A program made the translations under genes and the position numbers. Under the pieces are notes generated by a model. It did no database searches. It saw only the letters and a program-made list of their open reading frames with translations, and was not told where the DNA came from. Below are positions 3,510-20,969 of a DNA stretch of 26,289 nt, piece by piece; within the stretch, counting starts at the first letter, position 1; every line of letters begins with the position of its first letter. This DNA comes from Spirochaetaceae bacterium (GTDB lineage Bacteria > Spirochaetota > Spirochaetia > SZUA-6 > Bin103). The stretch lies in contig JAPPNY010000219.1 of NCBI GenBank assembly GCA_028818385.1, positions 1,414-27,702 of the forward strand. Direction: 5' to 3'.

Positions 3510-3834
3510 ACAGCACTTCTCCCTCTTCCAGCACCTGGTGGATCATGGAATACGGGTCATTTCGCTGGACTGCAAGGACTTCCTGAGAGCGGATCATCAC
3601 GTCGACGGGCAACACGAACTGCTCGGCAATCGCCCGACGAATCGGATTGCCGCGCTGTGGCTCTACGGCATCTGAGCGCAGCACGACCAGCAGGTCGACA
3701 TCGCTGTGCTCGCAGCCCTCGCCGCGGGCATGGCTGCCGAAGAGAATGATCCGTTCCGGATCGAAGCGCTCGACGATCAGTTGCGCCATGGCCCGGATCG
3801 TCGCTCTGTCAATCTGGTCCTCAACGGCATTCAC
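3490..3834 (-). CDS. MNT-type nucleotidyltransferase, likely antitoxin of the HEPN partner
   Basis: This minimal nucleotidyltransferase (114 residues from the chosen start) shows the polymerase-beta signature GSHARGEGCEHSDVDLLVV, with GS at about residues 33-34 and the metal-binding pair D45 and D47. An ATG at 3849 is possible, but its sequence runs straight through TGGGAGGG, which is an ideal ribosome site for the GTG at 3834-3832 seven bases further on. I therefore use the GTG. Known MNT antitoxins transfer AMP to tyrosines of their HEPN toxins. The gene lies 55 bases after the glycoside-hydrolase gene on the same strand and overlaps the HEPN gene. The pair is a common mobile defence or stress module and need not be related to the sugar genes upstream. 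Confidence 0.85.
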   Translation of the reverse strand: MNAVEDQIDRATIRAMAQLIVERFDPERIILFGSHARGEGCEHSDVDLLVVLRSDAVEPQRGNPIRRAIAEQFVLPVDVMIRSQEVLAVQRNDPYSMIHQVLEEGEVLYERRAA

Positions 3835-3889
3835 AAGCTTCCCTCCCATGGACAGCTCATTGTCCAGCGTACGACTGACCGCGTCCAGG

Positions 3890-5677
3890 CTACGTGTAGT
3901 GCGAGGGGTTCCAGCCGTCGACCAGGAGCAGCCGGTGCATGAGCGGGTCGCACGGCTCGGCGGCCATCCGCTGCAGGTCGTCGCGGTGGCCGAGGCGGCG
4001 GATTGTGTTCCACTGGCTGCGGGTGATGATGCGCCGGTCGCAGTCCCACAGCGACAGCCCGGCGGCTCCCCCGGCGTACGCCTCCGCGGCGCGCCGCAGG
4101 TAGTCGCCGGCAGCCATGTTGCGCGGGTACAGGTCCGGGTAGAACACGCATCCCGTCCCCTCCACGACGCCGCGCATGTAGGCGAACTCCAGACTGCCGT
4201 GCTGGGAGTCGCCGGCCGCCGGCGCCAGGATGTCCACCAGCCCCTCGCGCGCCCAGGTCCGCAGATCCAGCCCTGACGCGCGGTTGGTGTCGTCGTCCGG
4301 CCAGACGTTGGCCGCCACCCGCACCCTGCGGCCGGCGGCCGAGGCGTCCAGCGCCTCGCGCAGCTCCCGCATGAAGGTGGTCACGTAGCCGGCCCACAGG
4401 TCCATCAGGCGCCCGTCGTGCCCGTACTCGAGCTGCCACTGCGGGTCGCCGCCGCGATGGTCCACCCCGCCGCGCAGCTCGCGCGGGTCGATGCCGTGGG
4501 CGGCCCGGAACGCCTCGATCACCGGCGGCTCGTAGAGCACGAACGGCGCCCGCCGCGTGTAGATGAGCTGCACGCCCTCCACGCCGTACGCGGCCAGCTC
4601 CAGGAGCAGGTCGACGTAGAAGCGGCGCACCTCCGGGTAGGCCATGCTCAGCCGCGCCACGGTGCGGCCGTCGCTGTCGCGGCAGCGCAGCTCCGGGTGC
4701 TCGCGCCAGAACGGCACGGAGTGGGTGTAGTCCGGCGGCGGCCCCGCCATCGTCCCCATGCGGAAGCCCAGGAAGACGGCGATCCCCATCGCCTGCACGA
4801 AGTCCACCCGCACCCTGACCGGGTCGATCCCCCGCTCCAGGAAGCCGCGCAGGCTGCGCACGGTGCGCGCGGCCCGCTCCGAGACGAAGGCCTCCTCGCC
4901 TTCCCCGTACGGCGTCCCCACCGCGCTGGGATAGAAGGTCGAGCCGGCGCCGGTGCCGCCGGTGCCCAGGAACAACGTGCCCACGTCGCTGTCGGCGAGC
5001 GGCGCATAGATGGACAGCAGGTCGTCGACGGTGCGGGCGCCGTCGAAGAAGGACGAGCCGGAGTGCCCGTCCAGTTGCGCGATGATCAGCTTGGCGGCCG
5101 GATCGCTGCCCGCGCCGGTGTACTCGGCCACCTCCGTCCCGCTCATCGGCACCAGCCGCACGAAGGCGAGCTGCGCGGCGCTCGGCGCCTCCACCCCCGG
5201 ACAGGCGATGACCAGTTCCTCGTCCGTCAGGTCGCCCGCCTTCCAGAATACCTCCTCGATCGAGCCGCCCGAGCCCGGGATCGACGCGTTCATGCGCGCG
5301 CCGTCCACGACGCTGGGGCGCACCAGCTCGGCGTGCGGCTCGCGTGCCAGCCGCACGTCCAGTCCGAACGGGTCGCTGAACGGCGGGCCGGGCTCGATGC
5401 CGCCGCGGTACAGGCCCAGGTAGATCGCGTGCCAGCCGGTGACCGGCAGCGGCAGCCGCAGGTCCGGCGGCCGGCTCTGCTCGGTCATGCCGACCATCAC
5501 GCCGGAGATGCCGCCGGCGGTCTCGTACTCAAGCGTGTACCAGCAGCCGTCGCGCAGCCCGGAGCCGATCGCCGCGCGCGGCTCGCAGCGCGACAGGTCG
5601 CTGAGCAGCATCCCCTCGCCCTGCGGGCGGTGCCAGAAGCGGCCGTCCCGTGCAATGCCCCCCGATGCCTCATCCAT
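3890..5677 (-). CDS. Putative TIM-barrel glycoside hydrolase, 595 aa, unassigned family
   Basis: The protein of 595 residues has no signal peptide. Its first ~190 residues look beta-rich (for example CWYTLEYETAGGISGVMVGM), like a carbohydrate-binding or jelly-roll module. The rest reads as an alpha/beta barrel of the glycosidase type: VRVRVDFVQAMGIAVFLGFRM, then YVDLLLELAAYGVEGVQLIY, RVRVAANVWPDD, LVDILAPAAGD and GLSLWDCD at strand ends. This is the layout of the GHL10/GH42-like groups of bacterial hydrolases. I cannot name the catalytic acids or the substrate. Its ATG lies within the last codons of the upstream fusion gene (8-base overlap, ATGGATGA), preceded by AAGGTGAG, so the two are translationally coupled. 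It is the third gene of a three-gene cassette starting at 8791. Confidence 0.6.
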   Translation of the reverse strand: MDEASGGIARDGRFWHRPQGEGMLLSDLSRCEPRAAIGSGLRDGCWYTLEYETAGGISGVMVGMTEQSRPPDLRLPLPVTGWHAIYLGLYRGGIEPGPPFSDPFGLDVRLAREPHAELVRPSVVDGARMNASIPGSGGSIEEVFWKAGDLTDEELVIACPGVEAPSAAQLAFVRLVPMSGTEVAEYTGAGSDPAAKLIIAQLDGHSGSSFFDGARTVDDLLSIYAPLADSDVGTLFLGTGGTGAGSTFYPSAVGTPYGEGEEAFVSERAARTVRSLRGFLERGIDPVRVRVDFVQAMGIAVFLGFRMGTMAGPPPDYTHSVPFWREHPELRCRDSDGRTVARLSMAYPEVRRFYVDLLLELAAYGVEGVQLIYTRRAPFVLYEPPVIEAFRAAHGIDPRELRGGVDHRGGDPQWQLEYGHDGRLMDLWAGYVTTFMRELREALDASAAGRRVRVAANVWPDDDTNRASGLDLRTWAREGLVDILAPAAGDSQHGSLEFAYMRGVVEGTGCVFYPDLYPRNMAAGDYLRRAAEAYAGGAAGLSLWDCDRRIITRSQWNTIRRLGHRDDLQRMAAEPCDPLMHRLLLVDGWNPSHYT

Positions 5678-7583
5678 GCGAGCTCACCTTCCTGACCGTG
5701 ATCGGCACCCCCTCCGCGTGAATCCGCCGCGGCGGGAAGCCGTCCCGTGAAATCACGTCGATCACCAGGATCGTATCCGGTCCGATCAGCGCCATGTCCT
5801 GCATGCCGCAGTGGTACGGCTGGCCCGACGCGTACGCGCCGTCGAAGTGAACGACCTGGTCGCTCCAGACGCTCCCCTGCCCGTCCGGGCTGAAGACCAC
5901 GCTGCCGCCCGGAATCCCGCGCGCGCGCAACACCGCCAGCACGCCGCCCTCCGTCAGCAGCAGGCGAGGATAGATGCCGGGGATCAGCTCGCCGTCCACG
6001 TACACGCGCTGCGGGTCGGTCCAGGTGCGGCCGCCGTCGGCGGACCATGCGGTCAACAGCGGCTGGTCCAGGTGCGCGCGCCCGTGCAGGTCGCGGTGGC
6101 CGTGGATGCCGGAGCGCATGGCGGCGAACAGCCGGCCGTCGGCCAGCGCGATCAGGTCGGACTCGTTGCTGCCCATGGGCGTGAGCTCCGGGTGGTAGCA
6201 GACCGTCGCCAGGAAGCGCCAACCGCGCCCGCGGTCGTCCGACTCGGCGACGATCACGCGGTTCTTGAACCAGTTGTAGCGATGAATCAGCTCGGCGGCC
6301 ACGGGCGAGGCGGTCCAGACGCGGTCGCCCTCCAGGTTGCCGTACAGGGTGATCAGTATCTTGCCGTCGGGCAGCTCCAGGAAGCCGCGCACCGGTATGA
6401 AGGTGGTGGCGAGTGGGACGTGCAGAGGCGCGCTGAAGGTCTCCACGGTCCGCCACTCGTCGGTGGAGATGGAGACCTCCAGGGTGGCCGTGCCCTCGCG
6501 CGGATCGGCGAAGCGCGCCTGCCCGGCGACCTGCATGACGGTGCCGTCGCGGAGCTGGCCGTAGGCGCCGTCGGCGCTCAGCGGCCGGGCAGGTTCCCAG
6601 GTCGCGCCGCCGTCGGTGGAGCGGCGGTCGCAGAGGATCATGGTGCCGCGGCGGGTCACGATGAACTGCGCGCTGTTGCCCGGCAGCGTGCCCAGGTCGA
6701 TGCGGTCGCCGACGGTGATGTCGAGCTGCGGGACGTCGGGGCCGGCCGGCCGTGCGGCGGTGATCGGGGGGCGACCGAGGACCGGGCGGGCGGTGTCGGC
6801 GGCTTCGTTGGGGCCGGGCCCCAGACCGCCGATGCCCGCGGCATCGCAGGCGACGCGGAAGCCCACACTCAACAGCCGCAGCTCCCCATACTTGAACGAG
6901 CCGAACACGTCGGCGCCGGTCATGTGCTGCGGCGAGTTGAAGGCGCCGCCACGGGTCAGCGAGCCGTCGCCGTCGGCGCAGATCTCCCAGACGTTGCCGA
7001 GCAGGTCGTGGAACCCCCAGGAGTTGGCGGGATACGAGCCAGCCGGCATCGGATGGCCGATCTGGGACACGCCGTAGTTCATGAGCCGGGCGTCAGGATG
7101 ATCGCCCCAGTGGTAGAGGGTGTCGGTGCCGGCGCGGGTCGCGCATTCGTGCTCGTGGATGGTCGGCAGGCGGTAGGCACGTTCCTCCCGTTCGGAGAGC
7201 CACGCGCAGAACGCGCTGGCATCCTCGTCCAGCACCCCCGTGACCGGCAGATCGTCGCCGGAGAAGTCCGGGGCCTCCCACGGGGTGGTCTCCGCGACCA
7301 GCTCCCAGTGGAAGGTGATCAGCTCGCCGCACGGCTGCCTATGGCCGGTCTCCTCGACGAAGCGGCGGTACAGGGCGTTGGTGACCGGGAACTGACTCAG
7401 ATGGAAGGGAGCGACCTCGACCGGGATTCCCACGTGCGGGCGGTTCTGGCCGAACGCGGCCTCGGGCCGCTCGCCGGCACTCACCTGCGCCGTGTAGCGC
7501 GCCATGCTCGGCGTCCAGGCATCGAACCGGCCGCCGGCCACCGGAATCATCCGCAGGCCGAGCGAGTTGACGAACCCGGTCAT
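5670..7583 (-). CDS. Fusion: FGE/SUMF1-like domain plus Asp-box (sialidase-fold) domain
   Basis: Residues 1-247 form a formylglycine-generating-enzyme-like (sulfatase-modifying factor, PF03781-type) domain: FPVTNALYRRFVEETGH, then AFCAWLSEREERAYRLPTIHE, NSWGFHDLLGNVWEICADG, and RGGAF near 211-215 with VGFRVACD at the end. The cysteine pair that binds copper in true FGE is absent after RGGAF (residues 215-222 read FNSPQHMT), so sulfatase activation is unlikely. A Gly/Pro/Ala linker (248-285) leads to a BNR propeller with Asp boxes STDGGATWEP (322-331), ESDDRGRGWRF and SADGGRTWTD. There is no signal peptide. The ATG overlaps the stop of the preceding sialidase-like gene by four bases (ATGA). 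The FGE-like part may be a binding or redox module, as in other Cys-less relatives. Substrate unknown. Confidence 0.8.
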   Translation of the reverse strand: MTGFVNSLGLRMIPVAGGRFDAWTPSMARYTAQVSAGERPEAAFGQNRPHVGIPVEVAPFHLSQFPVTNALYRRFVEETGHRQPCGELITFHWELVAETTPWEAPDFSGDDLPVTGVLDEDASAFCAWLSEREERAYRLPTIHEHECATRAGTDTLYHWGDHPDARLMNYGVSQIGHPMPAGSYPANSWGFHDLLGNVWEICADGDGSLTRGGAFNSPQHMTGADVFGSFKYGELRLLSVGFRVACDAAGIGGLGPGPNEAADTARPVLGRPPITAARPAGPDVPQLDITVGDRIDLGTLPGNSAQFIVTRRGTMILCDRRSTDGGATWEPARPLSADGAYGQLRDGTVMQVAGQARFADPREGTATLEVSISTDEWRTVETFSAPLHVPLATTFIPVRGFLELPDGKILITLYGNLEGDRVWTASPVAAELIHRYNWFKNRVIVAESDDRGRGWRFLATVCYHPELTPMGSNESDLIALADGRLFAAMRSGIHGHRDLHGRAHLDQPLLTAWSADGGRTWTDPQRVYVDGELIPGIYPRLLLTEGGVLAVLRARGIPGGSVVFSPDGQGSVWSDQVVHFDGAYASGQPYHCGMQDMALIGPDTILVIDVISRDGFPPRRIHAEGVPITVRKVSSHG

Positions 7584-8791
7584 GCGCCCGCGGCCTCCGG
7601 CCGCCAGTGCACGGCCTCCAGGCGCGTGCGGCCGGCGACGGTGTTGGCGCAGACCGTGATCACCCCTTGCGTGCCGCCGGCGATGGTGCCGGGATAGGAG
7701 GAGCCCGTGTTGGGGTCTTCCCCCTCGCCCTGGCTGATCACGTAGGTCTCGTCCCGCCAGGTGGCGCCCTCATCATGGCTCACGCGGGCGCGGACGCCGG
7801 TATGGGCGAGGTCGTCGGGGTAGCGGTGCAGGTACTGCAGCACCAGCGAGCCGTCGTCCAGCCGGGCAAGGTCCGCCGAGCACTGCAGGAACGAGGTGAC
7901 CGGCCGCTCGTCGACCCAGGTTCGGCCGCCGTCGGCGGACTCGGTGAGGTGGGTGTTCTTGATGCGGTTGGTGCTCTCGTCGCGCTCGCTCGGGCGCTCC
8001 TCGCTGTCGAACTGCGGCCGGTAGCCGGAGGCGATCTTCAGGTCGTACGGCGCGGGAGGATCCCCGGGCTGCCGGTGCCCCCGCTGCTTGCGCACGCAGG
8101 CCAGGAGCGTACCCGACGGGAGCTGGTACAGGTGCCCCTCGGCTGCATGCATGGCCACGCAGGAGCTCTCCGGCCACGTGCGCCCACCGTCGAACGAGCG
8201 CAGCACGTAGAGGAAGACCCCCTGCAGCTCGACCGGCAGCGCGCCGGGATCGGCCGCGGGATCGCCGCCCGGCGCGTGGAAGACGTCCACGGTCAGAAGG
8301 ATCGATCCGTCGGCGAGCTGCAGCAGATCGGAGTTGGCCGCCTGCATGCGCGTGTGCGGAGGCACCATGGGGTTCAGGGGAGCGAGCGACCACGTCCTGC
8401 CGCGATCCTCCGAGCGGCCGATCACGCCCCGCCGGGTGGGCAGGTGGTCGTCGACCATGAAGAGGACCAGGAACGTGTCGTCGCGCAGGATCGCGAACGC
8501 GCCGAGCCACGGCTCGCTTCCCGGATCGGCCGGCTCGAACGGGTCCAGGTCGAGCGCGAACTCGCCGGAGCTCCAGGTGAGCCCTTCGTCGGCGGAGCGC
8601 AGCACGCGCCGGCCGATGCCTGGCCCCATCACGAACAGGTCGCCGTTCGCCGACCGCCGGATCGATCGACACAGCCCGCCGCTCGCCACCTCCGCTACCA
8701 ACTCGACGCGCCGCGCCGGCAGATAGGTCACGCTCCCGCCGCGCACCAGCGCGACGCGGTCGGCTCCAGCGTCGGGTCTCAGGTCGAGCAT
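7580..8791 (-). CDS. Asp-box (BNR/sialidase-superfamily) protein, cytoplasmic
   Basis: The 403-residue protein has five regularly spaced Asp boxes: RSADEGLTW (65-73), RSEDRGRTW (126-134), RSFDGGRTW (198-206), ESADGGRTW (284-292) and SHDEGATW (338-345). This is the count and spacing of a six-bladed sialidase propeller. The FRIP motif typical of classical exo-sialidases is not seen. There is no signal peptide. The frame stays open far upstream, but that part lies antisense to the permease gene. The ATG at 8791 is set by GGGAGG five bases before it. It is the first gene of the minus-strand cassette, coupled by ATGA to the FGE fusion, and is transcribed divergently from the LplB permease 69 bases away. 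Many proteins of this fold act on glycans other than sialosides, so the substrate is open. Confidence 0.82.
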   Translation of the reverse strand: MLDLRPDAGADRVALVRGGSVTYLPARRVELVAEVASGGLCRSIRRSANGDLFVMGPGIGRRVLRSADEGLTWSSGEFALDLDPFEPADPGSEPWLGAFAILRDDTFLVLFMVDDHLPTRRGVIGRSEDRGRTWSLAPLNPMVPPHTRMQAANSDLLQLADGSILLTVDVFHAPGGDPAADPGALPVELQGVFLYVLRSFDGGRTWPESSCVAMHAAEGHLYQLPSGTLLACVRKQRGHRQPGDPPAPYDLKIASGYRPQFDSEERPSERDESTNRIKNTHLTESADGGRTWVDERPVTSFLQCSADLARLDDGSLVLQYLHRYPDDLAHTGVRARVSHDEGATWRDETYVISQGEGEDPNTGSSYPGTIAGGTQGVITVCANTVAGRTRLEAVHWRPEAAGA

Positions 8792-8860
8792 GCGAGCCTC
8801 CCCACCGACCCTACACCCGATCGGGCGGCAGGCGATACGGACGCGCGGGACGCTTCGGGC

Positions 8861-9793
8861 ATGCGGCGCTATGATCAGCAGGCGATGGGTGCCCTCCAGT
8901 ACCTCTGGCGCTACCGGTGGCTGTATGTGCTGGCCCTGCCGGCGGTCGCGGCGGTCATCGTCTTCAACTACCTGCCCATCTACGGTATCTCGCTGGCGTT
9001 CCGGGACTTCAACGCCTCGCTCGGCCCGTTCCGGAGCCCCTGGTCGAAGCCGCTGTTCTACAACTTCTGGTTCCTGCAGGACTCCGAATTCTGGTACGTG
9101 CTGCGCAACACGGTGCGCATCTCCGTCGTCAAGTTCGTCTTCTCCTGGCCGGCCCCCATCGTCCTGGCGCTGCTGCTCAACGAGGTGCGGCGCCCCGGCT
9201 TCAAGCGCGTGGTGCAGACGATCAGCTATCTCCCCCACTTCGTATCCTGGGTGATCCTGGCCGGCATCACCTACCGCGTCCTGGGTTTCGAGGCCGACAG
9301 CCCGATCAACCTGGTGCGTGGCCTGTTCGGCCTGGACCCGGTCGCGCTGATGGGCGACCAGTCCTTCTTTCTGCCGCTGGTGGTGATCACGGCGATCTTC
9401 AAGGAGGTGGGCTGGGGCACGATCATCTACCTGGCCGCCATGAGCACCATCAATCCCGAGCTCTACGAGCAGGGCGAGATCGACGGCGCCGGGCGGCTGC
9501 GCCAGGCGTGGAACATCACGCTGCCGGGAATCCTGCCGATCATCGCCATCCTGCTGGTGCTGCAGATCCCGGCGATCCTTCAGGCCGGCCTCGACCAGAT
9601 CTGGAATCTTGCCAACCCCGCGACCCGCCGGGTCGCCTACATCACCGACATCTACGTGATCCGCATCGGCCTCATGCAGGGGCAGTACTCGTTCGCCACC
9701 GCGGTCGGCCTGATCTATTCGGTCGTCGGGCTGACGCTGACGCTGATCGCCAACCGCGTCTCCAAGGGCTCGGTCGGCCACGGGATTTTCTGA
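8861..9793 (+). CDS. ABC sugar-importer permease, LplB type
   Basis: The 310-residue integral membrane protein matches LplB-type permeases of the CUT1/binding-protein-dependent group from its N-terminus: WRYRWLYVLALPAVAAVIVF as the first membrane helix, then YLPIYGISLAFRDFN. Later come SYLPHFVSWVILAGI and the EAA loop YEQGEIDGAGRLRQAWNITL, which docks the ATPase. Six membrane helices are expected. ATG 8861 gives a normal N-terminus, and ATG 8885 is possible. Neither has a strong ribosome site. It opens the plus-strand operon (permease, Asp-box protein, M19 dipeptidase, second permease), with gaps of 22, 4 and 25 bases. Partners are the YtcP-type permease at 12059 and the solute-binding protein at 14313. 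No ATPase gene is in the window, as is usual where a shared MsmK-like ATPase serves many importers. Confidence 0.88.
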   Translation: MRRYDQQAMGALQYLWRYRWLYVLALPAVAAVIVFNYLPIYGISLAFRDFNASLGPFRSPWSKPLFYNFWFLQDSEFWYVLRNTVRISVVKFVFSWPAPIVLALLLNEVRRPGFKRVVQTISYLPHFVSWVILAGITYRVLGFEADSPINLVRGLFGLDPVALMGDQSFFLPLVVITAIFKEVGWGTIIYLAAMSTINPELYEQGEIDGAGRLRQAWNITLPGILPIIAILLVLQIPAILQAGLDQIWNLANPATRRVAYITDIYVIRIGLMQGQYSFATAVGLIYSVVGLTLTLIANRVSKGSVGHGIF

Positions 9794-9815
9794 GATTCGA
9801 GGGAGGAGACCGCAC

Positions 9816-11045
9816 ATGCCTGGAGCCGAACCGTTCGAGTGCATGCCGATCGCGGAGGACCTCACCCCGTGGGAGGCAAGCGTGGTGACGCTCGCAGACG
9901 ACGCGGTCATGCTCACCTACAGCCTGCGGGAGGTGCGCTACCTGCAGGGCGTCGTCTCGCGCGACCGCTGCCGCACCTGGGAGGAGCCGTTCTTCCTCAG
10001 GTCGGTGTCGGGAGAGCGGATCGTCGGCTGGCGTTCCAGCCCGCTGCGGCTGGCCTCCGGCAAGCTCGGCATCTTCTATTCCACCCTGCCAAAGCAGCCG
10101 GGCCGCGACGGCCGCCTGGGGTTTCGGGTGTCCGCGGACGAGGGGCAGACCTGGTCGGAAGAGACCCTGGTGGACTCCCACTTCGCCGTGTTGCGCAACG
10201 GCTGCGCGCGGGTGCTCGGCGACGGGCGCATCCTCTGCCCCGCCTACCGCTGGGTCACCCACCACCTGGAGGACGCCGAGCAGGATGGCACGCAGCTCTC
10301 CTATTCGTTCGCCTACTTCTCCGACGACGAGGGCGGTACGTGGCAGCGCAGCGCCAACGAGCTGATGATCCGCCACAACGACGTCGAGTACGACCTCGTG
10401 GACGGCAAGGGGTTCCGCCTGGTGGAGGAGGAGCCGCCGGGCCTGCACGAGTACCTGCAGTTCGAGAAGTATGGCGAGCCGGTGGCGGAGGAGCTGCGCG
10501 AGGGCCGGCTGATCAACCTGGCCCGCTGCCGCCTGGGCACGCTGTTCATGAGCTACTCCGCGGACGGCGGCGTGAGCTGGTCGAAGCCGCAGCCGAGCGG
10601 CCTGGCCGCCGCCGACGCGCCGCCGACCACCGCGCGCCTGCCCGGCTCGGGCGACCTCCTGGTGATCTGGAACCAGGCGTCGCCCGACGAGATCGCCTGC
10701 GGCCTGGCCCGGCACCGTCTCTCCAGCGCGGTGTCGTCGGATGAAGGCCGCACCTGGAAGCACTTCAGGAACCTGGAGTCGCTGGACGACGAGTGCCGCC
10801 TGCCGGTGCCGCCCCTGCAGGTGTATCAGCAGCCGATCGACGGCTACAAGCAGCCGATCGACGGCAACCGGTACCACCGGGCGCCCGGCGCGGTGCGCTG
10901 CGCCTATTCGGCGATCACCTTCGTCGGCACCGACGCCGTGATCTGCTACGACTACGGGTGGCGGCCGGACCCGGTCACCGGCAAGCGCAAGCACTTCGGC
11001 ACCAAGGTCAAGGTGGTGCCCTGCGCATGGTTCACGGAAGGGTAA
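9816..11045 (+). CDS. Asp-box (BNR/sialidase-superfamily) protein, cytoplasmic
   Basis: The 409-residue protein carries five Asp-box-like turns: SRDRCRTWEE (48-57, degenerate), SADEGQTWSE (106-115), SDDEGGTWQR (169-178), SADGGVSWSK (248-257) and SSDEGRTWKH (307-316). There is no signal peptide or membrane segment, so it should work on imported material. The start follows GGGAGGAG at 9801-9808. It sits 22 bases after the LplB permease and 4 bases before the dipeptidase, so it is co-expressed with transport. Residues 339-350 contain a short in-frame duplication (QPIDGYKQPIDG). A hydrolase of sialidase fold is likely, but the Arg triad and nucleophile cannot be placed confidently by eye. Confidence 0.8.
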   Translation: MPGAEPFECMPIAEDLTPWEASVVTLADDAVMLTYSLREVRYLQGVVSRDRCRTWEEPFFLRSVSGERIVGWRSSPLRLASGKLGIFYSTLPKQPGRDGRLGFRVSADEGQTWSEETLVDSHFAVLRNGCARVLGDGRILCPAYRWVTHHLEDAEQDGTQLSYSFAYFSDDEGGTWQRSANELMIRHNDVEYDLVDGKGFRLVEEEPPGLHEYLQFEKYGEPVAEELREGRLINLARCRLGTLFMSYSADGGVSWSKPQPSGLAAADAPPTTARLPGSGDLLVIWNQASPDEIACGLARHRLSSAVSSDEGRTWKHFRNLESLDDECRLPVPPLQVYQQPIDGYKQPIDGNRYHRAPGAVRCAYSAITFVGTDAVICYDYGWRPDPVTGKRKHFGTKVKVVPCAWFTEG

Positions 11046-11049
11046 GGCG

Positions 11050-12033
11050 ATGGCGCAACTGACCGACGCGTTCCTGGTGGTGGACGCCCACTGCGACACC
11101 CTGATCCGGCGCCAGAACAAGAGCGACCCGGTTGACCTGACGCGCCCCGACCCGAGCTACCAGATCGACCTGCCGCGCCTGCGCGCGGGCGGCGTCGACT
11201 GCCTGTTCTGCATGGTCGGGGACAGCGATCTCGACGCCTCCGTATCGCTAATCGACTCGATCTACTGCATGTGCGGAGACCCCGACGGGGAATACGCATT
11301 CTGCCGATCCGCCGGCGACGTGCGGCGGGCGCGCGCCGCCGGCAAGATCGCCATCGTGATGACGATCGAGGGGCAGTCGATGTTCCGCGAACGGCTCGGC
11401 CACCTGCGCACGTGGCACCGGCTGGGCGTCCGGATCGCCAACCTCACGCATGGCGGCGGCCGGCCTCCGGAGCTGCAGTACTCGGACAGCTTCTTCGGCT
11501 ACATCACGCCCGCCGAGCGGGAGACCCTGCGGCGGCAGTCCAAGGGGCTGACGCCGTTCGCGCGCGAGGCGCTTGCGGAGATGGCCCGCCTGGCGATGCC
11601 CGTGGACCTGGCGCACAGCAACGATGCGGCGTTCTGGGAGGTGCTGGAGACGGCCGACGTCCCGGTCTGCTACACGCACGGGGGGTGCTACGCGCTTTGC
11701 CCCCACTCCCGCTCGCTGAGCGACGACATGATGCGCGCGCTGGCCGAGCGCGGCGGGGTGATGGGCATCGCCTTCTACCCCGGCTTCATCGACCGGGAGG
11801 AACCGACCCTGGAGCGGCTGGCCGACCACGTGCTGCACGCGCTCGACGTGATGGGACCCGACCACGTGGGCATCGGCTCCGACTTCGACGGCCTGCCGAT
11901 GTGGAGCGAGGCGATCCCCGCCGACGTGTCGCGCCTCGACGACGTGTTCCAGGCGCTGGACCGCCGCGGCGTGGACCGCAAAACCCTGGCGAAGATCGCG
12001 GGCGAGAACTTTCTCCGCCTGCTGCCTCCGTAG
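11050..12033 (+). CDS. Membrane-dipeptidase family (peptidase M19) zinc hydrolase
   Basis: The 327-residue protein has the landmarks of M19 renal/membrane dipeptidases. These are the zinc pair in VVDAHCDT (residues 11-18), the bridging glutamate in IEGQ, ANLTHGG, VDLAHSND, CYTHGGCYALCPHSRSLSD, and near the end GIGSDFDG. Bacterial members cleave dipeptides, often with D-residues, and some act on other amides. There is no signal peptide, so unlike the eukaryotic enzymes it appears cytoplasmic. It starts 4 bases after the Asp-box gene (GGTAAGGCG before ATG) and is followed 25 bases later by the second permease. Its place inside an importer operon suggests that the transported compound contains a peptide or amide bond. 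Confidence 0.87.
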   Translation: MAQLTDAFLVVDAHCDTLIRRQNKSDPVDLTRPDPSYQIDLPRLRAGGVDCLFCMVGDSDLDASVSLIDSIYCMCGDPDGEYAFCRSAGDVRRARAAGKIAIVMTIEGQSMFRERLGHLRTWHRLGVRIANLTHGGGRPPELQYSDSFFGYITPAERETLRRQSKGLTPFAREALAEMARLAMPVDLAHSNDAAFWEVLETADVPVCYTHGGCYALCPHSRSLSDDMMRALAERGGVMGIAFYPGFIDREEPTLERLADHVLHALDVMGPDHVGIGSDFDGLPMWSEAIPADVSRLDDVFQALDRRGVDRKTLAKIAGENFLRLLPP

Positions 12034-12058
12034 GGAGCGCGGGGTAGAGAGAACGGCG

Positions 12059-12988
12059 ATGGTTGCCGGATATCGCCTGACGGCTTCGGAGCGGCTGTTC
12101 GGGGTCGCCAACCACCTGTTTCTGACGCTGTTCGCGCTGGCGACCCTGTACCCGTTCTGGTTCGTGCTGCAGGGGTCGTTCACGGACCCGGGCTTTCCGC
12201 TCCGCTTCCTGTGGCCGAGGGGCTTCTACTACGCCAACTACCAGCAGGTGTTCACGGTCACCGGGATCTGGAAGGCCTACGTGATCACGGTCGCGCGCGT
12301 GGGCGTGGCGGTGCCGCTCACGCTGATGGTCACCGGCGGCGCGGCGTTCGCGCTGACGCGTCCCGAGTTCGTGGGCCGCAACGCCGTGATCCTGCTGTTC
12401 TTCATCACCATGTTCATCAACGGCGGGCTGATCCCCCTGTACATGGTCCTGCGCACCGTCGGCCTGATCAACAACTTCCTGGTCTACGTCATACCGGTCG
12501 TGTTCAACGTGTGGATGATGATCGTCATGAAGACCTCGTTCCGGAGCCTGCCCGACGGGCTGGTGGAGGCGGCGGTGATCGACGGCGCCAACTACTTGAC
12601 GATCTTCTTCCGGATCGTGATCCCGCTGTCGCTGCCCATGATCGCCACGATGGGATTGTTCAACGCCGTGTGGCACTGGAACGACTGGTTCTTCGGCGCT
12701 TTCTACGTGAGCGCGCCCGACCTGCGGCCGCTGCAGACCTTCCTCCAGGAAGCGATCCTCGAAGGCGGGCTGTCCGATCACCTGGCGGCGCTCTGGCACC
12801 ACGGCGGCGGCGCCGGCCGCGACGACCTGCGCCTCGACCACAACGTGCTGAGCCAACTCCATCGCCTCACGCCGGAGTCGCTGAAATTCGCCTTCATCGT
12901 GGTGACGACGGTGCCGATCCTGTGCGTCTACCCCTTCATCCAGCGCTACTTCATCAAGGGCGTGATGATCGGCTCCATCAAGGAATAG
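12059..12988 (+). CDS. ABC sugar-importer permease, YtcP type
   Basis: The 309-residue membrane protein is the partner of the LplB-type permease. Diagnostic parts are FALATLYPFWFVLQGSF in the first helix, LLFFITMFINGGLIPLYMVL, the EAA loop EAAVIDGANYLTIFFRIVIP, and the conserved end PILCVYPFIQRYFIKGVMIG. The loop between LQTFLQEAI and LTPESLKFAF (about residues 226-270) is longer and more polar and glycine-rich than I expect for the family. A compensated frameshift there was considered, but no alternative frame reads better. It is the last gene of the plus-strand operon, and its TAG directly abuts the stop of the convergent gene. Confidence 0.88.
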   Translation: MVAGYRLTASERLFGVANHLFLTLFALATLYPFWFVLQGSFTDPGFPLRFLWPRGFYYANYQQVFTVTGIWKAYVITVARVGVAVPLTLMVTGGAAFALTRPEFVGRNAVILLFFITMFINGGLIPLYMVLRTVGLINNFLVYVIPVVFNVWMMIVMKTSFRSLPDGLVEAAVIDGANYLTIFFRIVIPLSLPMIATMGLFNAVWHWNDWFFGAFYVSAPDLRPLQTFLQEAILEGGLSDHLAALWHHGGGAGRDDLRLDHNVLSQLHRLTPESLKFAFIVVTTVPILCVYPFIQRYFIKGVMIGSIKE

Positions 12989-14203
12989 TCAGATGGCCGT
13001 GACGTCCACCGCGCCGAGCTCGATGTCTTCCTTGTTCACGGAATAGCCGACCAGCAGCCGGCCGGGCTCCTCCAGGCAGCACGGATACATGTAGCCCGGC
13101 AGCTTGAGCAGCCCGAGGATCCGCTGGTCGGTCGGATCGTCGACCAGGATGTGAACGGAATCGAACCGATACCCGTCCTCGCCGATCAGCAGCGTCAGGT
13201 GCATGCGGTTGTGCAGCGTCGCGTTGGCGTTGTTGCACAGGTAGTAGCGGCCGTCGGTCAGCCGCCCCGCGTAGTTGCGCGACATCGCGTCCGGAATGTC
13301 GGAGATCATCGGATCGCTGAAGGTGCGTCCGCCGTCGGTGCTGTGGTTGACCCAGACGCGCCCCGACTGGCTCTCGTCCCGCCAGAAGATGACGATCGTG
13401 CCGTCGTCGGTCTGGTACCAGCTCGACTCGCCGCCGTCCAGCTTCGCCCCGAACGGCTGCGGCAGCGGCAGGGTCTCGGGCTCCTGCAGGATGTCCGCTC
13501 CCGGCCACAGGAGGATCGCCGGCCCGCTGCGCCGGTCGATCGACGCCACGCCGAGGAGCCGGCCTTCGGAGGTCAGGCGAGGCGACTCGTAGGTCGCCGA
13601 CACCCGCTCGGGGAGCTCCGCTTCCCGCGACCAGGTGCTGCCGTCGCATGAGGCGTAGACGTAGGTGCGCGCGTTGTGCCAGTCGGCGTAGTACCCGCCG
13701 CCGACCGCGGTCGAGTCGGGGTCGCGCACGCGTTGCGCCCAGCGGATCAACATGTAGAGCGATCCACCCAGCGCCGTCAGGCCCACGCATTTGTACGAAT
13801 CACGCGTGTCCTCTTCCCCGCCGATCACGGACGCGGGGGCGCTCCAGTCGCGGCCGTCGGCGGAGTGCGAGATGCGCACCTGCTGGCCCTCGGTGTCCTC
13901 GTCGAGGCGGCCGTTCGTGAACCCGTAGTAGTAGCGGCCGTCCAGCGCGGCGAGTTGTGAGTCGATGTTCCAGGAACCGGCCTCGCGGCTGGCGGTATAG
14001 ACGCGCGAGCGTTCGAACGGCGCATAGGGGACGATCGGCGGCACGCGCGCCCGCAACCCCTGGTCGGTGTAGCGCAGGATGCAGCCGCGTTCCTGCAGGC
14101 ACTCCAGGGTGTGGAACTTGCGGAGCTGGTCGGCCGCCTCCGGGCCGAGCATCGTGACGTACGGTCGAGACGCGATCTCCAGGCCTGCCGTGTGCTTCGT
14201 CAT
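12989..14203 (-). CDS. Asp-box (BNR/sialidase-superfamily) protein, cytoplasmic
   Basis: The protein has 404 residues from the chosen ATG (14203), which follows AAGGAGGGG eight bases upstream. The frame extends to an ATG at 14275, but that would translate through a terminator hairpin, so the shorter form is preferred. Propeller turns include SHSADGRDWSAP, SCDGSTWSRE and a good Asp box HSTDGGRTFSD. The protein is the most divergent of the five Asp-box proteins here, with blade-like sequences such as SSWYQTDDGTIVIFW. There is no signal peptide. It lies downstream of the solute-binding-protein gene on the same strand, behind a strong terminator, so it probably depends on readthrough or on its own weak promoter. 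Substrate unknown. Confidence 0.78.
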   Translation of the reverse strand: MTKHTAGLEIASRPYVTMLGPEAADQLRKFHTLECLQERGCILRYTDQGLRARVPPIVPYAPFERSRVYTASREAGSWNIDSQLAALDGRYYYGFTNGRLDEDTEGQQVRISHSADGRDWSAPASVIGGEEDTRDSYKCVGLTALGGSLYMLIRWAQRVRDPDSTAVGGGYYADWHNARTYVYASCDGSTWSREAELPERVSATYESPRLTSEGRLLGVASIDRRSGPAILLWPGADILQEPETLPLPQPFGAKLDGGESSWYQTDDGTIVIFWRDESQSGRVWVNHSTDGGRTFSDPMISDIPDAMSRNYAGRLTDGRYYLCNNANATLHNRMHLTLLIGEDGYRFDSVHILVDDPTDQRILGLLKLPGYMYPCCLEEPGRLLVGYSVNKEDIELGAVDVTAI

Positions 14204-14233
14204 CGGCACCGCCCCTCCTTGGTAGCGTGTACG

Positions 14234-14269
14234 AAAAAATGGCCGAGCGGGAACACTCCCGCTCGGCCA
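14234..14269 (-). terminator. Rho-independent terminator after the solute-binding-protein gene
   Basis: A perfect 13-base-pair stem (14240-14252 with 14257-14269, arms TGGCCGAGCGGGA and TCCCGCTCGGCCA) closes a 4-base loop. Six A residues (14234-14239) flank it on the plus strand, so the minus-strand transcript ends in a U tract. It lies 44 bases past the stop of the solute-binding-protein gene and just upstream of the ribosome site of the next minus-strand gene. Confidence 0.9.
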
Positions 14270-14312
14270 CGCCATCGGTGAATCCGCGGTCGGATCGTCG
14301 TGCGCCCCGCGA

Positions 14313-16025
14313 TTACCAGCCCATCACCGCGGCCCACTCGGCGCGCGGCGTGACGGTGTGCAGCGACTCGCGGTCGTCGACGTTGTTGTCGCTCATCCAC
14401 TGCTCCCACCGCTGCTGGCGCTCCTCGAAGATGGGCCGCCAGTCGGTGATGCCGATCATGCTGGCAACAAAGGCATCGTAGTCGGCCTCGAAGTCGCTGG
14501 AGGTGACCAGCCCCGCGAGAGCGGCGTCGAACCGCTCCAGGGCCGTGGCCACCGCCGACGCCTCGCGCGGCGGCAACGCCACCGTGAGCTGCGAATACGA
14601 CGGGATCGCACTCACCACGGCCGACAGATCGCCGACGCGCTCGCGGATGATGCCGTTCTCGCGCGCCGACTGCTGGCTGTGGTAGGTGAGCCGCGGCTGC
14701 CACGAGCCGTAGTTCGGCGTGCCGAACCAGTGCGCGTGCGGCGTCACCAGCGGCGGCCGTCCCGCCTGAATGGTGATCTCCACCGAGTCCTGCGAGTTGG
14801 CGATCTGACGCGTGTCGTGGGGATTCTTGCCCTGCAGCTCCGGCTTCATGCGCCACACCTCGGGTCCCTCCACGAAGTCCCAGTGCACGCCCAGGTAACC
14901 GGCCGCGAACATGTTGGAGATCCGGCCCTCGTCGGTCATGTGCCATTGGATGAAGCTCATCACCCCGTCGGGGTTGGGGATGTCGGCCGAGACCAGCGAC
15001 GGGTTGGGCTGCTTGTTGACGATCCGGCCCGGCGCGTCCTTGATCGGGTTGGCCATGATGAGGAGCTGCGAGTCGAGCGCGGCCTGCGTCTGCGGCGCGT
15101 CACGGCCGTGCTCCTCGATGAGAGCGGGGACGACGTCGGTGATGAGCGATGCGTACCACGGCTCGCCGGTGGCGACCGCGATGCTGGCCGTCTTCAGCAG
15201 GTCCTGGAATCCGGCCGTGTCCATGATGAACTGACCCTTGCCGAGCAGATCCTCGTTCCAGAGCAGGTTGAGGAACTTGAACGCCTCATAGGTTTCGACC
15301 GACGCCCACTCGGGCAGCAACCGGCTTTCGGCGTCCACTTCCCAGCCGGCTCCCTTGAGCTGATAGATGACGCGGCTGTTGACCGGCGACCAGGCGCTGC
15401 GCCACTGGAACGGGATGACCGGATCGCCCTTGAGGTCGGTCAGGCCGGACGCCTTGACCGCCCGCAGCAGGTCGAGCAGCTCATCGGTGGTCTGTGGATT
15501 GCCGTGCTCCTCGTAGAGGTCCTTGCGGATGTACCAGAGGACGTCCATGGACACGTCCTCGCACTTCACCGCCCATTCCCAGCCGGGCAGGCCGTAGATC
15601 TGGCCGTTGACCTTGTACTTCGACATGTAGCTCTGGCAGGCGCTGGCGATGATCGGGTAGTTCACGGAGTCGCGGAAATACTTGTCGAGCGGCAGCAGCC
15701 GCCCGCCGGCCGCCAGGGCGGCCATGGTCGTGAACGGCATGTTCCACATCAGGTCCGGGAACTGGTCCTGCGCGATCAGGAGCTGCAGCGCCTGGTCGGC
15801 GGTCTGCCCCGTCGGCACCTTGTCGACCCGGTCAACGGTGATACCGAACTTCTCGAGCGCCCATTCGTTGGAGACGTCGAGCAACTCGCCTTCGAAGGGT
15901 CCGCGTGGCACCCCCCAGATCCAGATACCGCGCTCGGGTTCCATCGTTGCGGACTCTCCGCCGCCTTCCGCGTACAGCGGCAGCGTCATGGAGAGAATGA
16001 TCAGAACTGCACCGATTTTTCTCAT
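14313..16025 (-). CDS. Extracellular solute-binding protein of the LplB/YtcP importer
   Basis: The 570-residue protein is within the range of the long LipO-type binding proteins that pair with LplB/YtcP permeases. The N-terminus MRKIGAVLIILSMTLPLYAE is a clear signal peptide, followed by GGGESA. There is no lipobox cysteine, so it is predicted to be free in the periplasm instead of lipid-anchored. Family-like parts are GQTADQALQLLIAQDQFPDL, YGLPGWEWA, WYIRKDLYEEHGNPQTTDEL and MSFIQWHMTDEGR. Many surface tryptophans and aromatics fit sugar stacking. The start follows AAGGGAGG. The gene points away from RraA, converges on the plus-strand operon that holds its permeases, and ends at a strong terminator, as expected for a binding protein made in excess over its partners. 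Confidence 0.87.
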   Translation of the reverse strand: MRKIGAVLIILSMTLPLYAEGGGESATMEPERGIWIWGVPRGPFEGELLDVSNEWALEKFGITVDRVDKVPTGQTADQALQLLIAQDQFPDLMWNMPFTTMAALAAGGRLLPLDKYFRDSVNYPIIASACQSYMSKYKVNGQIYGLPGWEWAVKCEDVSMDVLWYIRKDLYEEHGNPQTTDELLDLLRAVKASGLTDLKGDPVIPFQWRSAWSPVNSRVIYQLKGAGWEVDAESRLLPEWASVETYEAFKFLNLLWNEDLLGKGQFIMDTAGFQDLLKTASIAVATGEPWYASLITDVVPALIEEHGRDAPQTQAALDSQLLIMANPIKDAPGRIVNKQPNPSLVSADIPNPDGVMSFIQWHMTDEGRISNMFAAGYLGVHWDFVEGPEVWRMKPELQGKNPHDTRQIANSQDSVEITIQAGRPPLVTPHAHWFGTPNYGSWQPRLTYHSQQSARENGIIRERVGDLSAVVSAIPSYSQLTVALPPREASAVATALERFDAALAGLVTSSDFEADYDAFVASMIGITDWRPIFEERQQRWEQWMSDNNVDDRESLHTVTPRAEWAAVMGW

Positions 16026-16083
16026 TTGGGTTCCTCCCTTGTTGTGAGAATGGAGTTAGTCGATCATGGTGCGCAGATCACAC

Positions 16084-16113
16084 ACCGTAGGCAGCGGGCT
16101 CGGCGACCGTCAA
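16084..16113 (-). promoter_or_regulatory. Probable sigma-70-type promoter of the solute-binding-protein gene
   Basis: On the minus strand TTGACG (16113-16108) and TACGGT (16089-16084) are separated by 18 bases. Transcription would start near 16077, leaving a leader of about 50 bases with AAGGGAGG just before the ATG. The same spacing and nearly the same boxes occur before higB (18207-18236). Confidence 0.45.
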
Positions 16114-16146
16114 GGCTACCCGCCGCTGCCGCACCCGGAGCACCAC

Positions 16147-16884
16147 ATGGCAGCACCGCCCGCGGACACGACCCTCCTCGATGATCTGGCTCGCATCGAC
16201 ACTCCGACCATCTGTAACATCGTCGAGCTGTTCGACGTGCGCTCACCGGCCGCCGGCTTCATGGACGGGCGCATCCGCTGCGAGTATCCCGACCTGCCGC
16301 CGATGGTCGGGTACGCGGCCACGGCGACGTATCGGTCCGCCTACGCTTCGGCCGAAGGCGAGGGGTGCGAGCCCGCCGAGCTGCTTGCGACCTTCGAGTC
16401 GCTGCCCGGCCCCGCGGTGGTGGTGATCCAGGACCTGGACGAGCCGCCGGCCGCGGCCTGCTTCGGGGACGTGTCCTGCAGCAGCTACCAGGCGTTCGGG
16501 GCGCGCGGCGTGGTCACCTCCGGCGCCGGGCGCGACCTGGAGCAGGTGCAGGCCCTGCGCTTCCCGGCGTTCACGGCCGGGACGATCTGCTCGCACGGGT
16601 TCAGCTACCTGGTGGACACCGGCATCCCCGTGCAGGTCGGCGGGATCACGATACGACCCGGCGACCTGATCCATGGCGACCGCAACGGTGTCGTCACCAT
16701 CCCGAAGGCCATCGCCGCCCAGGTCGCCACGCTGGCCGACGACTTCATCGCCGCCGAACAGGAAGTGCTCTCCTACCTGCAATCGGCCCGGCCGCCGACC
16801 GTCGCCGGCTACCGCGACTCCGTGGCGCGCATGCAGCGGCAGCAGGCCGAGCTTAGGGACCGGATCGCCGCCGGGCGGCGCTGA
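16147..16884 (+). CDS. RraA/HMG-aldolase family protein
   Basis: From ATG 16147 the protein has 245 residues, with a core of RraA/4-hydroxy-4-methyl-2-oxoglutarate aldolase type. It begins LLDDLARIDTPTICNIVELF and contains GARGVVTSGAGRDLEQVQ, where the R-D pair corresponds to the substrate/metal-binding Arg-Asp of the aldolases, then DLIHGDRNGVVTIPKAIA. A C-terminal helix of about 35 charged residues follows. Members cleave or decarboxylate branched 2-oxo acids, and others only bind partners. An in-frame ATG at 16066 has a slightly better ribosome site but would overlap the presumed promoter and leader of the divergent gene, so I prefer 16147 (not certain). It is followed after 3 bases by an Asp-box gene. 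Confidence 0.8.
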   Translation: MAAPPADTTLLDDLARIDTPTICNIVELFDVRSPAAGFMDGRIRCEYPDLPPMVGYAATATYRSAYASAEGEGCEPAELLATFESLPGPAVVVIQDLDEPPAAACFGDVSCSSYQAFGARGVVTSGAGRDLEQVQALRFPAFTAGTICSHGFSYLVDTGIPVQVGGITIRPGDLIHGDRNGVVTIPKAIAAQVATLADDFIAAEQEVLSYLQSARPPTVAGYRDSVARMQRQQAELRDRIAAGRR

Positions 16885-16887
16885 CCC

Positions 16888-18060
16888 ATGGCCACCGAAC
16901 CCGACCTGAACGCAGCCGGCGGCGACCGGCCCACGCCCGAGGAGGCGGCGCGCAACGCTCCGCTGCTCGCCGGCTACGACTACGACCGCTACCCATCGTC
17001 GATCACGGGGTTCACGGGCATCAACCTGCAGCGCGTGTTCGTGCGGCGGCAGGCGCCCGCCGTGCGCACCCGCGTCGGGCCGCGCGGCAACTTCAAGGGA
17101 GCCATCGCGCGCCTGTCCGACGGCACGCTGATCGCCGCGGCATGCCGCAGGATCGATGTGCACGGGCTGTTCGGCGTCCACGTCTACCGCAGCGACGACC
17201 GCGGATTGACGTGGCGGGAGATCGGCGAGACGACGCTCCTGGGCAAGGAGATGAGCCTGACCGCGCTGCAGGACGACTCCCTGCTGCTCACGGTGGAGTC
17301 GGGGGCGATTCCCGGCAATGGCACCCGGATGCAGTACCACCGGTCGAACGACGGCGGCCGGACCTGGGCGACCGATTTCCTCGACGGGCTGGGAAAGCCG
17401 CGCAACGTGCTGGTGGAAGCGGACGGCAGCCTGCTCATGGTGCGCCCGCTCGGCTCGGCGTACCTGCAGCGCTTCTACGACGCGGCAGGCAGGGACTTCG
17501 AGCCGAACCCGCATCTCGAATTGTGCCGCTCGCGGGACGGCGGACTTACCTGGGAGCGCACCCCTGGGCGCGTCGCCTGGTCGGTGAGCACCTTCGGTGA
17601 GGTCTCGGTCGCTCGCCTTCCCGACGGCCGGCTGCTCGCGTCGCTGCGCACCAACCCGCCCGGAACGGAGGGAGAGGGGCAGCAGCTCACCTACCTCACC
17701 GAGTCCGAGGACGACGGCGCCACATGGTGCGAGCCGTGGCCGATGACCAACCTCGCCGAGGTGCAGGTGAACCTGCTCGTGCTGCGCGACGGCCGGCTGC
17801 TGGCGACCTACACCAACTACCACCTGCCGTTCGGCGTGTGTGCCCAGACCTCCGAAGACAGCGGCCGGACGTGGAGCTTCGACGCGCCGATCCAGCTCGC
17901 CGTCTCGGCGGACTGCTACACGGGATGGCCGGTGACCGTCGAGCTCGACGACGATGAGTTGATCACCTGCTACATGATCACCGCTTTCCAGAACGAACCG
18001 CCGGAGTCCAAGGGCGTGCTGCGCAACGTGTGCGAGGTGGTCCGTTGGCGGTTGCCCTGA
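16888..18060 (+). CDS. Asp-box (BNR/sialidase-superfamily) protein, cytoplasmic
   Basis: The 390-residue protein has five textbook Asp boxes: RSDDRGLTWRE, RSNDGGRTWAT, RSRDGGLTWER, ESEDDGATWCE and SEDSGRTWSF. Together with intervening hydrophobic strands such as LSDGTLIAA, LPDGRLLASL and LRDGRLLATY they make this the cleanest propeller in the island. There is no signal peptide, and the N-terminal ~50 residues are polar. It begins 3 bases after the RraA gene and is surely co-transcribed with it. An RraA-family enzyme beside an Asp-box protein suggests consecutive intracellular steps, cleavage of a glycan followed by handling of an acid product. That is inference only. The FRIP motif is not evident, so sialidase activity is unproven. 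Confidence 0.82.
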   Translation: MATEPDLNAAGGDRPTPEEAARNAPLLAGYDYDRYPSSITGFTGINLQRVFVRRQAPAVRTRVGPRGNFKGAIARLSDGTLIAAACRRIDVHGLFGVHVYRSDDRGLTWREIGETTLLGKEMSLTALQDDSLLLTVESGAIPGNGTRMQYHRSNDGGRTWATDFLDGLGKPRNVLVEADGSLLMVRPLGSAYLQRFYDAAGRDFEPNPHLELCRSRDGGLTWERTPGRVAWSVSTFGEVSVARLPDGRLLASLRTNPPGTEGEGQQLTYLTESEDDGATWCEPWPMTNLAEVQVNLLVLRDGRLLATYTNYHLPFGVCAQTSEDSGRTWSFDAPIQLAVSADCYTGWPVTVELDDDELITCYMITAFQNEPPESKGVLRNVCEVVRWRLP

Positions 18061-18523: not shown

Positions 18524-18536
18524 GGAGGGAGCGAGT

Positions 18537-20798: not shown

Positions 20799-20969
20799 GG
20801 GCCGAACCTTAGGAGCCACCGAACTGGCCGCCAAGGGCCACCCGCCCATGACCGTGCTTCTCGGCCAAGGCACGCTCGGCCTCGCTGAGGTAACCGTCAG
20901 CCGCCATCTGCACCCCTCGGCATTCCGCGACCCTGGCCCAAAGAAGGATTCGGCTATAGCGGCGCCGTG

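Follow-up and report, generated by a model that had tools for sequence, protein, structure and literature searches.

A two-layered locus of importer-linked Asp-box propellers in a spirochaete: a possible route for acidic glycosides

Introduction

What would a spirochaete do with five sialidase-fold proteins that carry no apparent export signal and are encoded around one ATP-binding cassette (ABC) importer? The question is raised by a stretch of 26,289 nucleotides from a Spirochaetaceae bacterium (assembly GCA_028818385.1, contig JAPPNY010000219.1, positions 1,414 to 27,702; hereafter the window). A sequence-only reading of this DNA had proposed that a complex acidic glycoconjugate is taken up by the importer and dismantled in the cytoplasm by the five Asp-box propellers and neighbouring enzymes. 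We find that the arrangement is real and non-random, and that it is not a single five-enzyme machine: the locus has two layers, a conserved core with three propellers and an accessory block with two propellers and a hydrolase. The reading that we prefer, with a probability of about 0.45, is that an acidic glycoside of the 2-ulosonic type is taken up and broken down by the products of this locus. The observations behind it are the genes themselves, their synteny with one relative, the fold of two of the proteins, conserved residues and the association of propellers with importers in the relative; from these we infer where in the cell the proteins act, what the substrate is and each step of catalysis.

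Results

A conserved core and an accessory block

Pfam searches confirmed the five Asp-box proteins, the M19 enzyme, the RraA-like protein, the binding protein and the two permeases (BPD_transp_1) at the places first proposed, the hydrolase too lies where it was placed, and coordinates and families agree with the gene calls (Table 1; propellers are named below by the first position of their genes). All five propellers score above the curated cut-off of BNR_2 (PF13088) and have the sialidase propeller fold of GH33. The importer proteins were assigned by their Pfam families only, 'LplB/YtcP-type' being the name used in the sequence-only reading.

The two layers emerge from comparison with a locus (L001) in an uncultured Spirochaetia metagenome-assembled genome (G001; hereafter the relative). 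There, the order is LeuB, permease 1, propeller 9816, M19 enzyme, permease 2, propeller 12989, binding protein, RraA-like protein and propeller 16888, followed after about 0.9 kb by the thiamine-diphosphate enzyme and the MR_MLE gene; the syntenic genes are 78-94% identical, identities that suggest an origin of the window in a near relative of this genome. At that place in L001, tblastn gave no match to the HEPN/MNT pair, the 3890-5677 hydrolase, the 5670 fusion or the 7580 propeller, nor, at the corresponding place, to the HigA, exporter and Lnt stretch. Because L001 keeps three propellers with the importer and lacks the accessory block at that place, the locus is divided into two layers. The idea of five propellers forming one set around one importer thus finds no support in that form, since no more than three accompany the importer in the relative, and the expectation that the same gene set would recur in related genomes holds, in this one relative, for the core and fails, at that place, for the accessory block. 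The absence of the block fits gain or loss alike, two genomes having been compared. Also in L001, fragments of the thiamine-enzyme gene (114 residues, 59% identity) and of the binding-protein gene (33 residues, 79%) lie at 17128-17904, between the core and the thiamine-enzyme gene and apart from the full copies.

Tracing the cluster in other genomes by its M19 gene was considered and rejected: a scan of genome contigs for M19 returned 15 loci, of which only L001 is syntenic with the window. At L002, which has an M19 orthologue of 68% identity, tblastn with the other window genes gave no match. In this locus, from a Chloroflexi metagenome-assembled genome, the orthologue (10001-10972) adjoins, by eye, frames resembling mannose-6-phosphate isomerase, an MFS transporter and a zinc alcohol dehydrogenase.

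Propellers lie near importers throughout the relative's genome

In G001, 31 BNR_2 matches reduce to 28 places once three fragments belonging to the same frames are left out. Of the 28, 24 are found no more than 10 kb from a PF00528 permease match, whereas 20,000 circular shifts gave 8.4 on average (P at most 5e-5). Leaving out the home locus gives 21 of 25, and a narrower limit of 5 kb gives 16 of 28 (5.0 expected). The proposed association of propellers with an importer is supported, and genome-wide in the relative. Relatives of the GH156-fold hydrolase (GH-type genes) also lie near propellers, four of eight places in G001 being within 3 kb of one (0.34 expected); this test used all eight places, found regardless of propellers, and random points that do not preserve clustering. 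The regions fetched from G001 and from a further genome, G004, were chosen around propellers and GH-type matches. A MalK-type OB domain was found once in each of these two genomes, which fits an ATPase shared among importers, as is usual for this importer type.

Across the class, a BNR_2 match was present in 136 of 394 genomes, G001 having the most first-look candidates (44) among the genomes listed, and GH-type matches at E up to 1e-10 in 6 of 394. These counts are lower bounds, because only the best three to six first-look candidates per genome were scored (four for the 12989 family, six for BNR_2, three for GH-type).

Several other arrangements were seen in these genomes. At L039:7564-12660 in G001, two permeases, a propeller, a PhyH dioxygenase and a DHDPS-family protein are consecutive; by eye, propeller genes of L035, L036, L041, L043 and L051 (also G001) lie in or beside runs resembling oligopeptide-type ABC importers; and in G004 five GH-type genes fall within 8 kb of one contig (L055:2103-9993).

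Could the neighbourhood instead result from mobile elements that recently shuffled gene cassettes, so that neighbours have few functional ties? L001 has no accessory block at the corresponding position, the block is richer in GC than the core (71.9% for 3850-8830, against 67.7%), a HEPN/MNT toxin-antitoxin-like pair flanks it, and gene fragments follow the core in L001. Yet the order of the core is kept at 78-94% identity and propellers outside the home locus are associated with permeases too; moreover, base composition is weak evidence on the block, because the conserved thiamine/MR_MLE stretch is equally high (72.3%). We consider shuffling very improbable.

The 12989 propeller resembles the BT1020 Dha hydrolase

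The best-conserved propeller, that at 12989, is by its sequence a free-standing relative of the BT1020 Dha-hydrolase propeller. BT1020 is its best solved relative by sequence (profile match, E 1.5e-21) and stands at rank 3 in a Foldseek search (E 1.5e-14). The alignment shares Asn at N79, Glu at E102, Arg at R333 and R361, Lys at K367 and Tyr at Y373, and the two proteins have a YSVNKED stretch in common. BT1020 is described as a Dha hydrolase that keeps the Tyr-Glu pair and as bi-modular, also having an arabinofuranosidase site (PMC6811678). The earlier suggestion that the substrate may not be sialic acid gains support from this likeness. In contrast to BT1020 (GH143, from Bacteroides thetaiotaomicron, acting in rhamnogalacturonan II use), the 12989 propeller is free-standing, shows no export signal and adjoins an ABC importer.

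We found 157 homologues of the 12989 propeller, of which the 120 listed share 38-96% identity; five of those listed carry an organism name, and they come from Kiritimatiellaeota, Planctomycetota, Armatimonadota, Phycisphaerae and Microbacterium. Residues E259, R275, R333, Y373, R361 and K367 are invariant across 109 sequences of the family (108 of the 120 homologues were kept by length; the family alignment comprises 52 of the 120 and the query), and a hydrophobic N-terminus is absent from 106 of the 108. The libraries searched know this family only as BNR_2 or as a BT1020-like propeller.

Active sites form a graded set

Residues were counted in 32 propeller domains from the window and its relatives, two of 34 proteins (1015 and 1064 residues) having been left out and the first 270 residues of the 5670 protein removed. 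A Glu is found in 30 of the 32, as is an Arg 16 residues further on, and all five window propellers have both. In a profile of 22 proteins, the same columns align with a Glu and an Arg of the P. gingivalis sialidase; we take them to be the catalytic Glu and the second triad Arg of GH33, which have the same 16-residue spacing. At the place that we take for that of the nucleophile Tyr, set by sialidase sequence (by BT1020 for the 12989 propeller), a Tyr occurs in 16 domains; the third Arg is present in 18. The 9816 propeller has E221/R237, the third Arg and Y364, whilst that at 7580 has E218/R234 and Y366 with a His at the third-Arg place. The pairs E474/R490 of the 5670 protein and E238/R254 of the 16888 propeller are accompanied by Met594 and Trp347, respectively, at the place of the Tyr. 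Strings of the form F/Y/H/W-R-I/L/V/M-P occur only in the FGE half of the 5670 protein and at the C-terminus of the 16888 propeller; R42 of the 7580 propeller (in CRSI) is close to the blade-1 FRIP place and might play the part of the FRIP Arg.

Because the Tyr and the third Arg are kept to differing degrees, the five look like a graded set: the 12989 and 9816 propellers look competent, that at 7580 less so, and those at 5670 and 16888 doubtful, so that the last two may not be sialidase-type hydrolases. Compared with GH33 sialidases (M. viridifaciens, P. gingivalis), the window propellers are without the blade-1 FRIP and without a visible signal peptide, and only two of five have the third Arg.

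Some or all of the propellers may then be other enzymes (lyases, esterases, acid-sugar hydrolases) or binders on a propeller scaffold, the link to import being a habit of the lineage with its cytoplasmic sugar enzymes. The patchy Tyr and third Arg among the 32 domains, the loss of the Tyr from two of the five window propellers and the wealth of importers in the lineage (109 PF00528 matches in G001) all suit this explanation. Against it stand the Glu and the Arg, both found in 30 of 32 domains, the complete Glu-Arg-Arg-Tyr set of two window propellers and the set that is invariant in 109 sequences, and we regard it as somewhat unlikely.

Propellers and hydrolase lack a recognizable export signal

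Signal peptides were sought with a heuristic, the best 12-residue Kyte-Doolittle hydrophobicity, rather than a trained predictor, with a threshold of 1.9 and with in-frame ATG, GTG and TTG starts lying between the stop codon ahead of each gene and a point 150 bases into it. None of the five propellers reached the threshold from any start tried (at most 1.44), so that export from alternative starts was rejected and the earlier statement that they lack signal peptides stands; the 3890-5677 hydrolase scored 0.29. By the same measure the binding protein scored 2.57 and permease 1 scored 2.88. In a wider set of 34 propellers and 21 GH-type proteins, drawn from the window and from the regions fetched from G001 and G004, no score exceeded 1.9, against 2.57 and 2.90 for the two binding proteins of the locus; the nearest were 1.86, just below the threshold, for the relative's copy of the 9816 propeller, and 1.83, the N-termini in G001 being those set by our own gene caller. 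The propellers would thus be cytoplasmic.

The hydrolase has a GH156 fold with an altered site

For the hydrolase, previously no more than a putative glycoside hydrolase, the assignment could be refined: the predicted structure (mean pLDDT 65, built from 19 sequences, with a poor N-terminal domain) and the sequence relate it to GH156. It was also considered as a plain GHL10 protein and rejected (20.4 bits against a cut-off of 27.9), the GH156 match being better. Both carboxylate-binding Arg residues of GH156, Arg129 and Arg202, are kept. The acid His134 falls in a gap and NDxH was not found, the Asn346 place reads Asp or Trp in the subgroup of the hydrolase (alignment, by eye), and the N-terminal part, which would hold the base Asp14, is unaligned with 6rzd. 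The protein thus differs from the inverting exosialidase EnvSia156 in the gap at His134 and in an extra N-terminal domain. A plasmid search with it gave no match.

Downstream enzymes and the case for sialosides

The RraA-like protein has a D-X20-R-D motif at residue 135 (108 in the relative), which we take to be that of RraA-type class II aldolases. Its start is ambiguous, the gene caller having taken the shorter form in the relative while similarity spans the longer. Ulosonic acids are 2-keto-3-deoxy-4-hydroxy acids, and an RraA-type enzyme could for this reason replace NanA. The majority of RraA homologues are described as probable class II pyruvate aldolases (PMC5065237), and in alginate use an RraA-like enzyme is described as acting on a 2-keto-3-deoxy sugar acid (PMC8563752). 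With the RraA-family 2-keto acid enzymes (HMG/CHA aldolase, FlDet) the window protein shares Pfam family and motif; here, it is encoded before a propeller gene. The M19 enzyme has the motifs AHCD, IEG, DLAH, YTHG and GSDFDG, presumably its metal ligands, in keeping with its family.

The sequence-only reading had seen no neuraminate lyase or epimerase. For the epimerase this agrees with the absence of NanE (PF04131) from all four genomes of the relative's family, whose completeness is not given (the control was positive in 8 of 14). For the lyase the agreement is partial: of seven DHDPS-family matches in G001 one, in another propeller-importer cluster, was classified, and it appears not to be a NanA (79.6 and 96.5 bits against cut-offs of 382 and 281), whereas any of the other six could be.

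These results bear on the possibility that ordinary sialosides (Neu5Ac) are imported and degraded by diverged true sialidases, as predicted for bifidobacterial clusters. Clusters of Bifidobacterium longum that are described for sialic acid metabolism have a sialidase predicted to be intracellular (PMC5758520). The likeness to our locus lies in that predicted location; the difference is that NanE was not found in the four genomes of the family. As the five propellers also lack the blade-1 FRIP, the classified DHDPS-family protein falls far below the NanA cut-offs and the closest solved relative of the 12989 propeller is BT1020, we judge a sialoside substrate improbable.

Layout of the window and neighbouring genes

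Table 1. Main features of the window, with coordinates, strand and evidence.
Coordinates	Strand	Feature	Layer	Evidence
3890..5677	-	TIM-barrel hydrolase, predicted GH156 exosialidase fold, ~200 extra N-terminal residues	accessory block	
5670..7583	-	FGE/SUMF1-like domain (about 52-207) fused to Asp-box propeller	accessory block	PF03781 6.8e-33, PF13088 1.3e-8
7580..8791	-	Asp-box propeller	accessory block	PF13088 1.2e-11
8885..9793	+	ABC importer permease 1 (start 8885 or 8861)	core	PF00528 6.3e-16; 94% identity in L001
9816..11045	+	Asp-box propeller	core	PF13088 6.5e-22; 90% in L001
11050..12033	+	M19 dipeptidase-like metalloenzyme	core	PF01244 8e-79; 88% in L001, 68% in L002
12059..12988	+	ABC importer permease 2	core	PF00528 1.4e-11; 91% in L001
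12989..14203	-	BT1020/GH143-like propeller	core	E259, R275, R333, Y373, N79, E102
14313..16025	-	ABC solute-binding protein with signal peptide	core	SBP_bac_1 PF01547 5.4e-9; hydrophobic N-terminus 2.57; 78% in L001
16066..16884	+	RraA-like protein (start 16066 or 16147)	core	PF03737 1.6e-23; D-X20-R-D; 80% in L001
16888..18060	+	Asp-box propeller	core	PF13088 8.5e-18; 79% in L001
22915..24519	-	Thiamine-diphosphate enzyme (acetolactate synthase-like)	neighbour kept in relative	PF02776 5.7e-32; 80-82% in L001
24542..25792	-	Enolase-superfamily (MR_MLE) enzyme	neighbour kept in relative	PF13378 5.3e-22; 88% in L001

From left to right, the window holds a LeuB-type dehydrogenase, the HEPN/MNT pair, the minus-strand block (7580-8791, 5670-7583, 3890-5677) and a plus-strand run of permease 1, propeller 9816, M19 enzyme and permease 2; a minus-strand pair (binding protein and propeller 12989) and a plus-strand pair (RraA-like protein and propeller 16888) follow. 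The units diverge at the intergenic stretches of about 8792-8884 and 16026-16065, the latter being longer if the RraA-like gene starts at 16147. The dehydrogenase (2012-3094) was dropped as a member of the pathway: its score is above the cut-off for LeuB (488.6 against 393 bits) and below that for tartrate dehydrogenase (319.9 against 470.4), so it is treated as a housekeeping neighbour, although the LeuB gene of L001 ends 7 bases upstream of permease 1.

At the edge of the accessory block, 3105-3849 (minus strand) encodes a HEPN domain protein and an MNT-type nucleotidyltransferase that is MntA antitoxin-like, under its cut-off. The FGE/SUMF1-like half of the 5670 protein gave no tblastn match in loci L032-L058; as it has, by eye, no Cys pair close to the GFRVA stretch, it is perhaps not an oxidase. 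Beyond the core lies a HigA antitoxin (NCBIfam, over its cut-off) with a 93-residue frame ahead of it (18242-18523 / 18414-18917, plus strand), a frame that presumably resembles HigB. An MsbA-like ABC exporter and an apolipoprotein N-acyltransferase (Lnt) occupy 18942-22771, between the core and the thiamine/MR_MLE genes. An open frame with WD40-type repeats, seen by eye, lies at the window edge (1-903, minus strand).

Discussion

In the preferred reading, the binding protein and the two permeases would bring a small acidic glycoconjugate into the cell, an ATPase encoded elsewhere supplying the energy, and the propellers, which are without an export signal, would cut it in the cytoplasm. The 12989 propeller is most likely the enzyme that releases, with retention, a 2-ulosonic or 2-ulosaric acid (a Kdo-, Kdn- or Dha-like 2-keto-3-deoxy acid), Y373 and E259 being the putative catalytic pair and R275 and R333 possibly holding the acid. 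The RraA-like protein would cleave the freed 2-keto acid in NanA's stead, as a class II pyruvate aldolase or as a dehydratase/decarboxylase, and the M19 enzyme may trim an amide or peptide part. Other linkages would fall to the accessory block, through its two propellers and its GH156-fold hydrolase. Kdo-type and Dha-type acids are described in prasinophyte scales and in the theca of Tetraselmis (PMC10762512), and the sponge mesohyl is described as containing sialic acid residues (PMC8163846). A bolder form of the proposal, which we think unlikely, is that we are dealing with an unrecognised cytoplasmic route for non-sialic ulosonic or ulosaric ketosides (Kdo-, Kdn- or Dha-like, as in prasinophyte scales), in which a free-standing GH143-like family and related propellers replace the secreted sialidase, an RraA-type aldolase replaces NanA, and altered GH156-fold enzymes cut further linkages.

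Several observations weigh against the preferred reading. Sialidase residues had been sought in the five propellers; the Glu-Arg pair is present in all, the Tyr is missing from two and the third Arg from three, and the FRIP motif was not found at the start of blade 1 in any, as the sequence-only reading had noted. BT1020 has a Lys at the R275 place, and E259 lies outside the aligned stretch. Several activities occur among RraA-like proteins, and the roles of the M19, thiamine and MR_MLE enzymes in a pathway are guessed. With four candidates scored in each of the 394 genomes of the class, G001 alone showed a close orthologue of the 12989 gene, and seven others had weak matches. Further away, in the phylum of Ca. 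Udaeobacter, at least 21 of 387 genomes, again with four candidates scored in each, encode a protein of the 12989 family (E up to 1e-20); we take this phylum to be Verrucomicrobiota. In 13 fetched regions (12 from this search and one Prevotellaceae genome; Pfam was run on 20 proteins from six of the loci, and at two, L077 and L088, a simple gene caller did not recover the 12989-type gene), profiles detected no M19, RraA or LplB-type permease gene beside the family member. One genome of the phylum has an SSF symporter gene preceding a family member at two places, at one of which a second family member and a sulfatase come next. Because none of these three gene types was detected in the 13 regions, it is at most the theme of an importer with a member of the 12989 family that recurs, with another type of importer, and not this gene set.

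The interpretation first offered for the locus is thus partly supported, its suggestion that each propeller may cut a different linkage being conjectural. Importer-coupled intracellular glycan breakdown is a known theme, and the locus holds one well-defined enzyme family within it. A literature search on spirochaetes, sponges, sialidase and ABC transporter together returned nothing, and one on cytoplasmic or intracellular BNR-repeat sialidases with an ABC transporter a single paper, on a mannosidase. A survey of sponge symbionts, in which Spirochaetota are among the glycoside hydrolase-enriched lineages, reads GH33 counts as host sialic acid use (PMC8163846). If the propellers act on other 2-keto acids, that reading changes, and 'sialidase' labels on such genes may mislead, as their active sites differ from those of true sialidases. 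If the non-sialic cytoplasmic route is true, use of sialic acid could not be read from many of the 'GH33 sialidase' calls made in marine and sponge-associated genomes. The 12989 family, with its invariant active site and a testable class of substrates, offers a defined target.

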